A stretch of DNA of 37,566 nucleotides from NCBI GenBank assembly GCA_016873715.1, contig VGWF01000034.1:1-37566 (forward strand), read 5' to 3'. The notes beneath the pieces were generated by a model, which worked only from the letters and a program-made list of their open reading frames with translations, was not told the DNA's origin and searched no databases. Each line of letters begins with the position of its first letter. The first letter of the stretch is position 1. Made by a program: the position numbers and the translations under genes. This DNA comes from Lentisphaerota bacterium. Lineage in GTDB: Bacteria > Verrucomicrobiota > Kiritimatiellia > PWTM01. This document shows positions 19,654-25,872 of the stretch, one piece after another.

Positions 19654-20952
19654 CTACTCGCCCTTCCACCACGCGTCGAGCTTCGCGCGGAGCGCCTTCA
19701 CGCGCGCGGGCTCGGCGGCGGCGAGGTTTTCCGTCTCATGCGGGTCCTTCGCGAGGTTGTAGAGCTCGATCACCCCGTCCGCCTCGTTCTGCGGGGCCGG
19801 GACGATGAGCTTCCAGTCGCCCTCGATCGCCCAGCGCCAGCGCAGGTTGGCGGCCGGACGGTCCAGGTCGACCGCGTTGTGCGTGAAGCACTCGCCGAAG
19901 ATGGCCTCGCGGCCCTTCACCGCCGCCTCGTCGAGCAGGTTGACGCCCTGCATTGCGGCGTCCTTCGGCAGCCCGAGCGCCGCGAGCACCGTCGGCATGA
20001 GGTCGATCGACATCGCCTTCTCCGCCGCGTCGCGCGGGGCGACGCGCCCCGGCCACCGGACCATGATGGGCGTCCGCACCCCGCCGTCGTACTGCGACTG
20101 CTTCGACTTCGGCGCGTAGCGCGGCGTCGCGGGGTTCTGGATCCACCCGTTGTCCGCGACGTAGAGCACGATCGTGTTCGTCGCGAGCCCCTCGCGGTCG
20201 AGCAGGCCGAGCAGGTCGCCGACCGTCTCGTCGAACCACTCGACCATCGCGTGGTAGCGCGCGACGTGGATCGAGTCGGTCGTATTCGTGGCCTTCGCCA
20301 GCAGCCGGTCCGGCGGCGTGTGAGGATCGTGCGGCATCATCGGCGCGTACCACACGAAGAACGGCTTGCCCTGCTTCTTTGCCTCCCCGATGAAATCGTG
20401 GATCGGCTGCATCGTCTTCCGGCCGATGTCGAGGCCCTCGTCGCCGTGTCGCTCCCCTTTCGTCATGCCGTGCGTGAAGCCGCCGCGGCCGTAGTGTCCC
20501 TGCCACCACTTGCCGGTCTGCAGGCTCAGGTAGCCCTGCTCCTTCAGCACGCGCGGCAGCGTGGCCACGGCCTCCAGGTGCCGGTTCATCACCTCGCGGC
20601 CTTCCTGGAACTCCTTGGACCCCGGCCCGGTCCGCTTCCCGGCCCCCCGCGGCGCGGGCGGATCGTTGCTCGTCACCTTGTGCTGGTGCGGGTAGAGGCC
20701 CGTGATCATCGTCGCGAGGCTCGGACAGCAGAGGCTCGACGGAACGTAGCCCCGCCGGAACGTCAGCCCCTCCGAGGCGAGCCGGTCGATGTTCGGCGTG
20801 CGGATGCACGGGTGGCCCATGAAGGAGTAGTCCGTCCACGCGTGGTCGTCGGACACGATCATCAGGATGTTCGGCTTCGTCTCCGCCGCCGGCGCGGCGG
20901 CGCAGAAGAAGAGGACCAAGGCGACGGACCGGCGGATCGTGGACAGGCTCAT
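19654..20952 (-). CDS. Secreted type I sulfatase with variant CCPSL active-site motif
   Basis: 432 aa. Signal peptide MSLSTIRRSVALVLFFCAAAPAA, then the sulfatase fold. Metal-binding aspartates lie in IVSDDHAW (D35, D36). The formylglycine position is Cys75 in SSLCCPSLATMITGLYPHQH, then TGKWWQGHYGRGGF, VLYVADNGW and SQYDGGVRTPIMVRWPG. The canonical motif is C-x-P-S-R; here Arg is Leu79. It should hydrolyse sulfate esters, probably on polysaccharides, in the periplasm or outside, and would need a formylglycine-generating enzyme not seen in the window. Met1 at 20952 was chosen over 20988 because the signal peptide begins there. The nearest upstream gene is the GTPase, 308 bp away, so it is probably transcribed separately. 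Confidence 0.93.
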   Translation of the reverse strand: MSLSTIRRSVALVLFFCAAAPAAETKPNILMIVSDDHAWTDYSFMGHPCIRTPNIDRLASEGLTFRRGYVPSSLCCPSLATMITGLYPHQHKVTSNDPPAPRGAGKRTGPGSKEFQEGREVMNRHLEAVATLPRVLKEQGYLSLQTGKWWQGHYGRGGFTHGMTKGERHGDEGLDIGRKTMQPIHDFIGEAKKQGKPFFVWYAPMMPHDPHTPPDRLLAKATNTTDSIHVARYHAMVEWFDETVGDLLGLLDREGLATNTIVLYVADNGWIQNPATPRYAPKSKQSQYDGGVRTPIMVRWPGRVAPRDAAEKAMSIDLMPTVLAALGLPKDAAMQGVNLLDEAAVKGREAIFGECFTHNAVDLDRPAANLRWRWAIEGDWKLIVPAPQNEADGVIELYNLAKDPHETENLAAAEPARVKALRAKLDAWWKGE

Positions 20953-21260
20953 GGCGTGTACTCCCGCGTTGCGCCGCGAGCATGCCATTCCGCCGCGCCT
21001 CCCCGCAACCCGCGATTCGCGCCGCCCGTCCGCCTCCCCGATTGTTTCATGAAATGTAACGATCGTTACATTTCATGCAACATTCAGGGCGGGACGCGGG
21101 CGATCCACGCGGCGGGGTTCGACAGCCGCCGGACATCAGCAGCGGTCCGCGCGCACCCGGACGCGCAGGGCGGATTCGGGGGTGCCCTTGCCGGGGGCGA
21201 CCGGATTCGATCGTGGCACACCTCGCGTCGCCACGCCGGGGCGGATGCGACGGGACGGCG
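20953..21260. other. 308-bp gap between GTPase and sulfatase genes
   Basis: No gene is supported. The only structure seen is the 40-bp palindrome at 21043-21082, about 90 bp upstream of the sulfatase start. The rest is GC-rich with no recognisable promoter boxes or terminator. Confidence 0.6.
21043..21082. repeat. 40-bp AT-rich palindrome, left copy
   Basis: Dyad centred between 21062 and 21063. The arms TGTTTCATGAAATGTAACGA and TCGTTACATTTCATGCAACA pair at 19 of 20 positions; the only mismatch is T21047 against C21078. Almost the same sequence recurs at 23693-23730. The similarity continues a few bases on the side facing the other copy (ATTC here, GAAT there). It contains no coding sequence. 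It may be an operator for a dimeric or tetrameric regulator or a boundary repeat. Confidence 0.95.
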
Positions 21261-22166
21261 TCAGGCGGATGCGTCGACGGAGGCCTCCAACAGCGGGCGG
21301 ACGCGATCCGCCGTGCCGCCGCGCACGATGCATACCAGCTCGAGCGCGCCGGCGACGTCCGGCGCCCGGACGATCTCCGGAGCACCGCCCGCCGCCTGCA
21401 CCGAGACGACGCGCCCGCCGCTTCGAACGAAGCCCTTGAGCCGGTGGAGGTCGTCGCCCGCCGCGGCGACCGCCGCCGCCAGGCGCGCGACATCCACCCC
21501 GCCCGGACATCCGATCCGGAACGTCTCGAAGGCCGGATCCCGGCAGGCGGCATACTCGCCCGCAGGCTCCCGCCCCGGCGCCGGGGGGAACGGGTCGACC
21601 TCCACCTCCGCCCGCACCGCGCGGAGCACCTCGGCGCCGGGGCGCACGCCGCGCGCGAGCGCCTCCGCCTCGTCGCACACCGCGGGCGGCGCGAGATCGC
21701 ACTTGTTCAGCACGACGACGTCCGCCGCCTCGAGCTGCGCCCGGATCGCCGGCAGCGTGCGGACCAGCTTGAGCAGGCGCACGGGGTCCGCCACCGCGAT
21801 CACGCGGGCCAGCGCGTAGCGCGCGTCGAGCCGCGTCTCCACGAGCAGCCGGACGATCACGCGCGGGTCGGCCATGCCGCTGGCCTCGATCACGACGCCG
21901 TCGAGCGGGCCGGCCGCCGCGCGCGCGGCGATCGCGTCGAGCTGGCCGATGAACTGCGTCACGAGGCACCGGCAGAAGATGCTTCCGCCCGGCAGCGCGA
22001 TCACGTCGAGCCCCTCCGCCGCCAGCGTCCGGCCGTCGATGTCCGAGGACGAGAACTCGTTGACGAGGAACAGGAGCCTCCTCCCGCGGTTCGCGGTCGC
22101 GATCCGCCGCAGGAGCGTCGTCTTGCCGCTGCCGAGGAAGCCGGCGACGAGGCAGAGCGGGATCAT
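21261..22166 (-). CDS. COG0523 (CobW/G3E family) GTPase
   Basis: 301 aa. Walker A is GFLGSGKTT (residues 9-17) at the very N-terminus. The switch region is NEFSSSDIDG, where the family usually has NEFG..GID. The DPVRLL region and NKCDL (guanine specificity) follow. G3E proteins load metals or cobalamin, or repair cofactors of partner enzymes. The usual CxCC metal motif after GG is altered: LPGGSIFCRCL keeps one of its three cysteines and gains a C-x-C spacing. The C-terminal half ends with an RLKGFVRSGGRVVSVQAAGG segment typical of the CobW C-domain. The ATG overlaps the stop of the URO-D/thioredoxin gene (ATGA, 22163-22166), so the two proteins are probably made in step and act together. Confidence 0.9.
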   Translation of the reverse strand: MIPLCLVAGFLGSGKTTLLRRIATANRGRRLLFLVNEFSSSDIDGRTLAAEGLDVIALPGGSIFCRCLVTQFIGQLDAIAARAAAGPLDGVVIEASGMADPRVIVRLLVETRLDARYALARVIAVADPVRLLKLVRTLPAIRAQLEAADVVVLNKCDLAPPAVCDEAEALARGVRPGAEVLRAVRAEVEVDPFPPAPGREPAGEYAACRDPAFETFRIGCPGGVDVARLAAAVAAAGDDLHRLKGFVRSGGRVVSVQAAGGAPEIVRAPDVAGALELVCIVRGGTADRVRPLLEASVDASA

Positions 22167-23533
22167 GCGCGGCCGTGGCTCGCGGCGGCCTCGCGGAACG
22201 CCGCGGCGAGCGTGTGCGGATCCGGGATGATCGAGGCGAAGCGGACTTCGCCGTCGATGCAGATCGTCGGCAGGTTCTTCACGCCGAGCTTCATCATCAT
22301 GCCGAGGCCCTGGCGGACCTTGATCTTGTGCTCGTTGATGTAGCAGCGGCAGCCGCTCGCGGTCGCGGCGCGACGGACGGCCTCCATCATGTACTGGCAC
22401 GGCGCGCAGGAGGTGGAGTCCAGCGTGATCACGTCGACGACCACCCCGTCGGCCGCGGCGTAGTCCGGCACGGCGACGTCCTCGAACGCGTCGGCGACAC
22501 GGGTGGACAGCGAGGTGCGGGCGACGTCGCGCGCGTAGACGTCGTGGATCATGTCCGACACGGCCTGCAGGTTCGCGGACGGCGTCGCGTAGGGCAGGTC
22601 GCAGCCCGGCGCGAGGACGAACCCCTTCGCCCCGGCGGCGTCCATGACGTCGATCGCCTCCTTGCGCGCGTCGTCCGGCTCGCCGAGCAGCAGCACGGCG
22701 GTCAGGCGCAGGTTGCCGCCGAAGGACTTCCCGGCGCCCTCACAGAGCGAGCGCAGGCGCGGGATCGGGATCTGTTCGTCGACGGAGAGGTTGTCGGCCT
22801 TCGTCCGGCTCATCGCCTCGAGGTTGCGCGACACGTCGCCGCAGACGAAGAGGGACGAGAGCGCGCCGCGGGCGCGGATGGACTCGAACACGCCGTCGAG
22901 CGCCGGCGCGACGAAGCGCGTGAAGTCCTCCGGCGAGATCTGGCTGACCATCGGATCGACGACGGCGATCACGTCCGCCCCGGCCCCGAGGTAGGCGGCG
23001 GCCGCCTCCCTCGCGACGCCGGCGCAGGTCGCGAGGAGTTCGTCGACCCGCGCGGGCTCGTCGAACATGTCGAGGAAGAGCGAGTTTCCCCGCAGGTGCG
23101 CGGCCAGCGTGAACGGGCCGCAGACGAGGCCGTAGAAGGCGGTCTCGTCCCCGAAGCGACGGCGGAGCGTTTGAAGGGCGCCCAGCGCGACCGGCATGCG
23201 GCCGGCCCCGGGATCGAATCCCGGCAGGGCGGAGAGCGGCGTCTCCTCGAGCGGATGCGTGATGACGGACGGCGGCACCTCCTCGGCCCAGTGGAGGCGG
23301 CAGCCGAGGATCTCCGCCTCGATCTGGAGGTCGAACATGACGGGCAGTCCGTCGGGGCGGTAGAGCCCGACCGCCGTGGTCAACCCCTGCACGACGCGGT
23401 CGGCCGACTGAAGGTACTCCGCGGCGCCGCGCCCGATCAGCCGCCCGCCGTGGCAGCCGACGAACGGCAGCCACGCCGGCCGCGGCGTGGCCCGGCCCCG
23501 CACCGCATTCAGAAGCAATTCGCGTCCCGTCAT
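22163..23533 (-). CDS. URO-D/MtaA-type methyltransferase fused to a thioredoxin-like domain
   Basis: 456 aa. Residues 1 to about 345 form a uroporphyrinogen-decarboxylase-fold protein of the MtaA/CmuA corrinoid methyltransferase type: ETAFYGLVCGPFTLAAHLRG, VIAVVDPMVSQISPEDF, FVCGDVSRNLEAM (Cys231) and FVLAPGCDLPYATPSANLQA (Cys311). MtaA-type enzymes bind zinc through H-x-C...C; here the His is Phe. From about 365 comes a thioredoxin-like domain with SCAPCQYM (Cys376, Cys379) and GVKNLPTICIDGEV, holding the cis-proline. Classical members end near 340 aa, so the redox domain is fused. ATG at 23533 has GGGAGG upstream. Likely a methyl or thiol/metal transfer enzyme; true heme-pathway decarboxylase activity is unlikely. 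Partner: the overlapping GTPase. Confidence 0.85.
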   Translation of the reverse strand: MTGRELLLNAVRGRATPRPAWLPFVGCHGGRLIGRGAAEYLQSADRVVQGLTTAVGLYRPDGLPVMFDLQIEAEILGCRLHWAEEVPPSVITHPLEETPLSALPGFDPGAGRMPVALGALQTLRRRFGDETAFYGLVCGPFTLAAHLRGNSLFLDMFDEPARVDELLATCAGVAREAAAAYLGAGADVIAVVDPMVSQISPEDFTRFVAPALDGVFESIRARGALSSLFVCGDVSRNLEAMSRTKADNLSVDEQIPIPRLRSLCEGAGKSFGGNLRLTAVLLLGEPDDARKEAIDVMDAAGAKGFVLAPGCDLPYATPSANLQAVSDMIHDVYARDVARTSLSTRVADAFEDVAVPDYAAADGVVVDVITLDSTSCAPCQYMMEAVRRAATASGCRCYINEHKIKVRQGLGMMMKLGVKNLPTICIDGEVRFASIIPDPHTLAAAFREAAASHGRA

Positions 23534-23946
23534 CGCCCGTCCTCCCGACATCGCCCGCAGCCTAGTGAATCGGCGGGGCACCGGCAAGGCGGGCGAATGC
23601 GCACGAGGCGGGCCCCATCCTCCGGGCCCCCCCCCGCTTGCGCAACGGTTGCCGCGCAACCGGTCGCAACGCCGTCCCGCATCGCTCCGAATGTTGCATG
23701 AAATGTAACGATCGTTACATTTCATGCAACGGATCCCGGGATAAACCGGCGAGGGTTGCGGGGTTCGGGGGCCGGAATGGCGGGACGGTCCGACAGGACC
23801 GGGCGCACCCGAATGCGCCGCCTGAATGGGGCACGCCCCCCCGCCTCTCTCTCCCTGCCGCCGGGAACCCTGCCCCTCCCCGCCGCGCTTTTCGGACTGT
23901 CCGCACGGCCGGCGGAAGGGCATGATGCCGCCGGGAGACGCAAGGC
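23534..23946. other. 413-bp divergent intergenic region upstream of URO-D fusion and GH97 genes
   Basis: It holds the perfect 38-bp palindrome (23693-23730), 160 bp upstream of the methyltransferase start and 216 bp upstream of the GH97 start. A GCGCAACGGTTGCCGCGCAAC cluster of short GCAAC/GTTGC words lies near 23640-23660. A C-rich run lies near 23628. No gene and no clear sigma-70 promoter were recognised, although both flanking genes must be promoted from here. Confidence 0.6.
23693..23730. repeat. Perfect 38-bp AT-rich palindrome, right copy
   Basis: The arms GTTGCATGAAATGTAACGA and TCGTTACATTTCATGCAAC are exact reverse complements, meeting at 23711/23712. The left copy at 21043-21082 differs in one arm base. 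The core TGTAACGATCGTTACA has the form of a helix-turn-helix regulator site. Confidence 0.97.
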
Positions 23947-25872
23947 ATGAAGACGTGGATTCTCGCGGGATGGGCGGCGGTGGCGGGCGTGGCGGCGGCG
24001 GAGTCGTGGACGGTCGCCTCGCCGGACGGGAAGCTCACGGCGACCGTGAAGCCGGGCGCCGCCCTGACGTACAGCGTCGCGCTCGGCGGCGCCGCGGTGC
24101 TGGACGAGTCGCCGCTGGGCATCGTCCGCGACGACCAGCGGTTCGTCGAGGGCCTCGCCTTCGTGGCGGAGAGCCGCGCGAAGATCGCCGGGGAGTACGC
24201 CATGCCCCACGGCAAGCGCAGCCGCTGCCGCGTCGACGCCAACGAGCTGACCCTCGCCTTCCGCGCCGCCGGCGGCGCGCGCGTCGACCTCGTCCTCCGC
24301 GCCTCGAACGACGGCCTCGCCCTCCGCTACGTCTTCCCCGAGACCAACGCCGCCGCGCGGACGGTCACGGAGGAGCTGACCGGCTTCCAACTGCCCGCGA
24401 AGTCGGCGTCGTGGACGCAGCCCTACGACGAATCGACCAAGTGGACCCCCGCCTACGAGCGCCTCTTCGAAAACGGACTGCCCGCCGGCACCTACACGAC
24501 CAACAAGGCCGGCTGGTGCTTCCCCGCCCTCTTCCGCGCCGGCGAGAACGGGCCGTGGGCGCTGCTGACCGAGGCGGGGGCCGACGGCTCCTACTGCGGT
24601 TCCCGGCTCGCCTCCGCCGCGCCGGGCGGCCTCTACCGCATCCGCTTCCCCGACGCCGGCGAAGGGCTCAAGACCGGCGCGGTCGCGCCGACCGCCCCCC
24701 TCCCCTGGGCCACGCCGTGGCGCGTCGTGATCGCGGGCGCGACGCCCGCCGCGATCGTCGAGTCGACGCTCGTCCAGGACCTCAACCCGCCCGGCCCCGC
24801 ACGCACGCCCTCGTGGATCCGGCCCGGCCGCGCCGCGTGGAGCTGGTGGTCGGAGCAGGACAGCCCCCGCAGGCCGGAGCGCATGAAGGCCTTCATCGAC
24901 CTCGCCGCGGAGATGGGCTGGGAGTACTTCCTCGTCGACGCGAACTGGAACTACGTCGACGAGCCCGCGGTCCTCGACCTGGTCCGGTACGCGAAGGCGA
25001 AGAAGGTCGGCCTCCTGTTCTGGTACAACTCCGGCGGCCCGCACAACGAGGTCACCGAGGCCCCGCGCGACCGCATGATGCCGCGCGACATCCGACGCCG
25101 CGAGTTCGCCTGGCTCCAGAAGCTCGGGGTGAAGGGCGTGAAGGTCGACTTCTTCCAGAGCGACAAGCAGAACCTCATGCAGCACTACCTCGACATCCTC
25201 CGGGACGCGGCCGACTTCGACATGATGGTCAACTTCCACGGCTGCACGATCCCCCGCGGCTGGCAGCGCACGTTCCCGCACCTGATGACGATGGAGGGCG
25301 TCCGCGGCGCCGAGTGCTACATCTTCGATCCGAAGTTCCCCGCCGCCGCGCCGTCGCACAACACGATCCTCGCCTTCACGCGCAACGTCGTCGGGTCGAT
25401 GGACTACACCCCCGTCACCTTCTCCGACAACAACAACCCGCGCAAGACCACGGCCGCGCACGAACTGGCGCTCTCGGTCGTCTTCGAGTCGGGCTGGCAG
25501 CATCTCGCCGACGGTGTCGCCTCCTACCGCGCGCAGCCGGACTTCGTGAAGGACTTCCTCCGCGCCGTGCCCGTCGCGTGGGACGACGTGAAGTTCCTTG
25601 CCGGCGCGCCCGGCGACCACATCGCCCTCGCGCGGCGCAAGGGCGACGACTGGTACCTCGGCGCGATCAACGGCATCGACCAGGCCGTGACGCTGAAGCT
25701 CCCGCTCGACTTCCTGTCCGCCGGCACCGCGTACGCGATGACCCGCATCGGCGACGGCAGCGGCCCGCGCGCCTTCGACAGGGCCGAGGCCGCGGTCCGC
25801 GCCGGCGCCGCACCGCTGGAAGTGACGTTGCAGCCGTTCGGCGGCGCCGTTGTGCATCTGAGGAAGAAATAG
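23947..25872 (+). CDS. Glycoside hydrolase family 97 (SusB-like) alpha-glycosidase
   Basis: 641 aa. Signal peptide MKTWILAGWAAVAGVAAA, then a beta-sandwich N-domain (to about 270), the catalytic (beta/alpha)8 barrel, and a C-terminal beta domain. WSEQDSPRRPERMKAFIDLA and YFLVDANWNY mark the barrel start. GVKGVKVDFFQSDKQ contains Asp401 where retaining GH97 enzymes have their nucleophile. MTMEGVRGAECY has Glu450, the likely acid/base. Inverting SusB enzymes lack that aspartate, so a retaining alpha-galactosidase or related activity is the better guess. NVVGSMDYTPVTF is a further family motif. It acts in the periplasm or outside. The pilin-like gene follows after 10 nt. Confidence 0.94.
   Translation: MKTWILAGWAAVAGVAAAESWTVASPDGKLTATVKPGAALTYSVALGGAAVLDESPLGIVRDDQRFVEGLAFVAESRAKIAGEYAMPHGKRSRCRVDANELTLAFRAAGGARVDLVLRASNDGLALRYVFPETNAAARTVTEELTGFQLPAKSASWTQPYDESTKWTPAYERLFENGLPAGTYTTNKAGWCFPALFRAGENGPWALLTEAGADGSYCGSRLASAAPGGLYRIRFPDAGEGLKTGAVAPTAPLPWATPWRVVIAGATPAAIVESTLVQDLNPPGPARTPSWIRPGRAAWSWWSEQDSPRRPERMKAFIDLAAEMGWEYFLVDANWNYVDEPAVLDLVRYAKAKKVGLLFWYNSGGPHNEVTEAPRDRMMPRDIRRREFAWLQKLGVKGVKVDFFQSDKQNLMQHYLDILRDAADFDMMVNFHGCTIPRGWQRTFPHLMTMEGVRGAECYIFDPKFPAAAPSHNTILAFTRNVVGSMDYTPVTFSDNNNPRKTTAAHELALSVVFESGWQHLADGVASYRAQPDFVKDFLRAVPVAWDDVKFLAGAPGDHIALARRKGDDWYLGAINGIDQAVTLKLPLDFLSAGTAYAMTRIGDGSGPRAFDRAEAAVRAGAAPLEVTLQPFGGAVVHLRKK

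Follow-up and report, generated by a model that had tools for sequence, protein, structure and literature searches.

Dispersed perfect palindromes with genome-specific arms: putative sites of PaaX-type proteins in Kiritimatiellia

Two palindromes enclose a pair of overlapping genes in the 37,566-nucleotide stretch of Lentisphaerota DNA analysed here (hereafter, the window), and raise the question of whether they are the ends of a two-gene module or sites of another kind. A preliminary description made from the letters of the window had proposed either that the module moves, or is regulated, as one block, or that the palindromes are two operators of one regulator controlling the module and its neighbours. 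Both palindromes are present as described, nearly identical and differing at one arm position, and so are the two ATGA-coupled genes, a URO-D/thioredoxin fusion with a CAPC motif and a COG0523 GTPase (Table 1). The start of the sulfatase gene faces copy 1, while copy 2 sits between the URO-D gene and the divergent GH97 gene, so that each palindrome lies upstream of its own gene set. We scanned ~1.47 Mb and, outside a related family of sites found in one other genome (G047, see below), found no perfect palindromes comparable to those of the window, which are far beyond chance.

Table 1. Palindromes and surrounding genes, in positions of the window
Feature	Position	Strand	Remarks
Sulfatase	19654..20988	-	Start towards copy 1
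Palindrome copy 1, GTTTCATGAAATGTAACGATCGTTACATTTCATGCAAC	21044..21081	none	One mismatched pair; ~55 bp upstream of sulfatase start
COG0523/CobW-type GTPase, FCxC motif	21261..22166	-	Partner of the URO-D fusion
URO-D/MtaA-fold protein with thioredoxin-like domain (CAPC)	22163..23533	-	ATGA overlap with GTPase gene
Palindrome copy 2, GTTGCATGAAATGTAACGATCGTTACATTTCATGCAAC	23693..23730	none	Perfect over 38 bp; ~160 bp upstream of URO-D start, ~216 bp upstream of GH97 start
GH97 glycoside hydrolase	23947..25872	+	Divergent from URO-D across copy 2

A search of the whole genome (5.1 Mb, 289 contigs), allowing up to three mismatches over 28 bp, returned exactly eight copies, all of them perfect over the 28-bp core and seven identical over 38 bp. 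The same search of the reversed sequence gave no match, and no half-sites were found in this genome outside full palindromes. All eight copies are intergenic, the one on contig C133 overlapping a gene's stop codon, and they adjoin unrelated genes: a sulfatase; the URO-D and GH97 genes; a radical SAM gene; a class III aminotransferase; TctA and a DUF5060/apiosidase-like protein; AlaRS and a Gfo/Idh protein; GatB and a PaaX-like gene; and a U32 peptidase and a Gfo/Idh protein. Two further, diverged sites were found on contigs C4 and C103 with an 18-bp core and up to two mismatches. Constraint extends beyond the palindrome itself: the next base is a purine in 16 of 16 arms of the copies in this genome, usually followed by T (11 of 16). 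Together with the G047 family, each arm shows 19 invariant or nearly invariant positions, then a purine (32 of 32 arms) and mostly T. The short ATTC/GAAT similarity that faces inward at the two window copies is thus real, but it had been taken as the sign of an inverted pair, and since the purine flank is common to every copy in the genome it belongs to the site itself.

Outside this genome, an exact scan of GTDB genomes and viral contigs gave no full copy of the palindrome, and the closest family relatives carry no such site. Searching 116 genomes with the 18-bp core and two mismatches uncovered nine sites in G047, which belongs to another family; eight of them have another common arm, AYTATCATTTTCATGTCACGA/TCGTGACATGAAAATGATARTR, and one of these eight differs by a symmetrical double change. 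Compensatory changes occur at 14 of 20 pairs, and none of 500 shuffles reached the covariation score. A covariance model, built from 13 sites after the counting of pairs had revealed these changes, matched 12 of 288 genomes of the class, judged from its named relatives to be Kiritimatiellia, including the one studied here (11 of the 287 others), although several of the matches are single and weak (E 1e-4 to 1e-2) and the one in G160 lies inside a gene. Genome G017 holds seven copies with the arm TCGTGACGCTAAATGAAACA and G052 three copies with the arm TCGTCAAATTAAATGACAGAT; in these two, and in several genomes that have a single site or a pair, the centre is almost always ACGATCGT, with differing arms. 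Each multi-copy genome presents its own arm sequence around a common ACGA/TCGT centre. Because arms change quickly, the covariance model probably misses further families.

In four families the site adjoins, within ~100 bp, a gene for a PaaX-type protein. In G017, a gene for a 269-aa protein lies between two copies (L199:5567 and 6499); in G226, two copies (L213:8430 and 9527) flank a gene for a 277-aa protein, and the second copy contains the gene's stop codon; in G098, a site lies ~70 bp upstream of the gene; and in the genome of the window, the C133 copy (L018:9225-9262) gives the last codons and the stop of a gene cut by the contig end. The palindrome thus supplies the stop codon of the paaX-like gene in two of the four families, i.e. 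in G226 and in the genome of the window. PaaX_M was found above cut-off in all four proteins, the partial one included, and PaaX_C in three, the match of the fourth falling below the curated cut-off. The site-linked proteins show 36-43% identity to that of G017, and when a profile was built from three of them, its positions 55-262 matched E. coli PaaX (8a39) with E 6e-9. These four site-adjoining genes are the only paaX-like genes in the loci examined at that point; by our own estimate (~70 gene slots beside sites, at most a few paaX genes per genome assumed), chance alone would give ~0.1 such neighbours. The majority of sites have no paaX-like gene nearby, and the paaX genes of G047 and G052 were not located among the matches listed. 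No PaaX-like relatives appeared in phages or viral contigs, and there were weak PaaX hits on actinobacterial plasmids. As a separate observation, at L216:5597-6660 in G098 the PaaX-like gene is divergent from a gene that we call ssb-like from reading its translation, with an imperfect, longer palindrome (~56 bp) between them.

Known PaaX systems offer a precedent for such an arrangement. E. coli PaaX binds TGATTC(N27)GAATCA, a 39-bp inverted repeat, and its own promoter is repressed (PMC9493321). In the palindromes, the conserved outer boxes are placed about as far from the centre as in this repeat. As with the operators of E. coli and actinobacterial PaaX proteins, we find a long inverted repeat (~39-44 bp) and a PaaX_M/PaaX_C gene at the site, in an autoregulatory position. 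Unlike those operators, the sites described here are perfect palindromes with genome-specific arms, in three to eight identical or nearly identical copies per genome, a quarter of them in convergent gaps and next to unrelated genes. ACG..CGT sites are also found near PaaX-type genes on actinobacterial plasmids: in Rhodococcus one lies at the paaX stop codon (L220:3115, 13 of 22 pairs), and in Arthrobacter pAL1 two have a common extended arm (L221:1189 and 4042). For the Arthrobacter regulator MeqR2, the binding sequence is reported to be TGACGNNCGTCA. The plasmid-borne actinobacterial sites match on a single arm, are not reported by the covariance model (R1), and the PWM from all sites is too loose for scoring them; their resemblance is suggestive of kinship with the palindromes, not proof of it.

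We hold with moderate confidence, from these sequence comparisons, that the palindromes are sites recognised by a PaaX-type protein, and that in each genome they have been multiplied and homogenised. There would then be at least 11 candidate sites for one such protein in the genome studied here, the window's two among them. The regulator, encoded at the end of contig C133 by the gene whose stop codon a palindrome forms, would comprise an N-terminal DNA-binding domain, a Cas2-like middle domain and the PaaX C-terminal domain; its dimer would bind both arms of the 38-44 bp inverted repeat, and it would control its own gene. At promoter copies, such as those of the sulfatase and of the URO-D/GH97 pair, it would repress transcription until released by a ligand, probably an acyl- or aryl-CoA by analogy with E. 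coli PaaX. The site would further have been copied and homogenised into identical intergenic palindromes without promoter preference, some of which are probably inert or in another role. The earlier idea of two operators of one regulator thus survives in outline, with a PaaX-type gene at this class of site in four families, although each palindrome would face different genes (the sulfatase on one side, the URO-D operon or GH97 on the other).

From their distribution, one can suspect that not all copies act in this way. Across the four multi-copy genomes, 25 copies could be scored, and these fall in 6 divergent, 13 co-directional and 6 convergent gaps (approximate, since directions come from our own simple gene calls), which are the proportions expected for random intergenic placement; many copies may therefore not be ordinary operators. 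In single-site genomes, the site is mostly located in promoters. The neighbouring genes have no common function, and identity over 38 bp in eight copies far exceeds the ~19 bits that, by our own estimate, eight sites need in 5 Mb. Diverged, more degenerate sites also coexist with the current family in the same genome (L157, L158 and L209; L153 and L208). The link to paaX favours binding sites, and the excess identity, the gap proportions and the degenerate kin sites would fit copying and homogenisation within each genome. This amplification is what makes the system unusual.

Much of this evidence also bears on a different explanation, in which the palindromes are REP-like mobile elements, i.e. 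a non-autonomous repeat of 38-42 bp mobilised, in the manner of RAYT, by the PaaX-like protein or by a partner of it, and not primarily regulatory. Several features are compatible with it: copies are identical within each genome but not from one genome to another, the current family is accompanied by more diverged copies, placement is intergenic without promoter preference, and in G017 and G226 copies flank a single protein gene. REPIN families are each located next to a RAYT of their own (PMC3116915), and the palindromes resemble REP/REPIN in being small, extragenic, organised in genome-specific families and associated with the gene of a single candidate cognate protein. They differ in that the protein is PaaX-like and not an HUH tyrosine transposase, in their perfect symmetry, and in the lack of an asymmetric tag or any REP tag sequence. 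There are also three to eight copies per genome (eight in the one studied here), not hundreds, where REP/REPIN usually exceed 100. No target duplications were seen, and among the adjacent genes scanned there is no Y1/HUH transposase, the recurrent neighbour being PaaX-like. To our knowledge, no recombinase activity or DNA mobilisation has been described in the PaaX family, and the promoter location of most lone sites also speaks against mobility as the main role. We consider the REP-like explanation unlikely, albeit the strongest of the alternatives. An idea that joins it to recognition by PaaX, and that we put forward as equally tentative, is that the part of the RAYT transposase is played by a PaaX-like protein carrying a Cas2-like domain: flanked by its own sites, this protein may drive, or be driven by, the spread and turnover of the perfect 38-42 bp palindromes inside a genome, the site of each lineage evolving with its protein, which would make them a new class of dispersed palindromes.

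A role in organising the chromosome, as parS-like or nucleoid-associated sites for ParB or some other protein and with paaX adjacency as a secondary feature, appears improbable. About eight exact copies would suit such a function; ParB is encoded in 58 of 58 genomes of the class searched while canonical parS is lacking, and one G052 site lies 13 kb from parB. The 16-bp canonical parS, TGTTTCACGTGAAACA, is essentially absent in the class, with one genome holding two matches at one mismatch. Yet ParB is conserved, whereas the palindromes are sporadic (12 of 288 genomes by the covariance model) and differ between genomes; no common palindrome was found near parB, and no copy lies on the stretch of the genome's own parB contig that was read. 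This parB gene (C45:23279-23831, L066) reads in two frames, perhaps because of an assembly error.

As to the block of 2.7 kb itself, the idea that the palindromes delimit a mobile or self-contained module is rejected. The two copies do enclose both genes, but six more copies stand beside unrelated genes across the genome, a distribution that had been named in advance as refuting the idea, no recombinase is encoded inside, and the gene pair occurs across many phyla without the window's palindrome; neither movement nor regulation as a block, as first suggested, agrees with these findings. The loci compared in relatives held no orthologous neighbourhood for an empty-site comparison. The URO-D-thioredoxin fusion, in which the thioredoxin-like CAPC domain is C-terminal, is present in Kiritimatiellia, Spirochaetes, Firmicutes, Bacteroidetes and others, and a COG0523 gene lies within 1.5 kb of its end in 34 of the 41 loci with room to see it, in several phyla. 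The two form an ancient gene pair with no link to the palindromes. The palindrome need no longer be read as the boundary of a methyltransferase module.

The chemistry proposed for the pair, a zinc-binding MtaA-like protein working with COG0523, was also weakened. The window pair resembles MtaA/CmuA methyltransferases and COG0523 GTPases in its URO-D fold and P-loop GTPase domain architecture. It differs from them in a fused thioredoxin domain, with the motif CA[AP]C in the fusion family, and in one motif of each protein. The His-x-Cys...Cys zinc site of MtaA, in which we take His to be a ligand, is absent: the His position is Phe in 47 of 47 fusion members compared (FVCG), although both Cys are kept. 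In the partner GTPase, the usual COG0523 motif CxCC is replaced by FCxC (40 of 40). Zinc methyltransferase chemistry is therefore not to be assumed. The fusion and its FCxC partner look like a distinct, conserved two-gene system.

An assembly or library artefact is the least credible explanation of all. The length and perfect symmetry of the palindromes recall mate-pair linkers, but all eight copies lie between genes and not at random positions, their flanking bases are constrained, and independent genomes carry different but related palindromes. Other candidates were tried and rejected. A Zur box, suggested by a resemblance to GAAATGT..ACATTTC, is not matched by a Fur-family gene, a search for PF01475 having found none in this 97.6% complete genome. 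A transposon with 19-bp terminal repeats is at odds with half-sites that occur only inside full palindromes and with the lack of a duplicated target. No terminator was found at either copy in the window, and divergent gaps contain about a quarter of all copies. A viral or plasmid origin was discarded, as neither the palindrome nor its G047 variant has a full match in phages, plasmids or viral contigs, where only short, chance-level pieces were found.

If the sites belong to the PaaX-like protein, the genomes described here would form a natural series: several times within a single class, a regulator would have changed along with all of its sites, and the copies inside each genome are identical. 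This would make both the genome-wide change of specificity of a transcription factor and the spread of operators as repeats testable. PaaX-type proteins of a class that has received little study would also gain a candidate binding site.

Two minor observations concern the surroundings of individual copies. In G047, two diverged palindromes (L153:2712 and 7835) flank the gene of a C25 (gingipain-type) peptidase, and another copy of one of the two lies at L208:198, which may mark a second subfamily. A stretch of low GC3 (L016:3689-5008; 0.62-0.64 versus ~0.95) lies ~5 kb from one palindrome copy, which suggests a recently acquired island.
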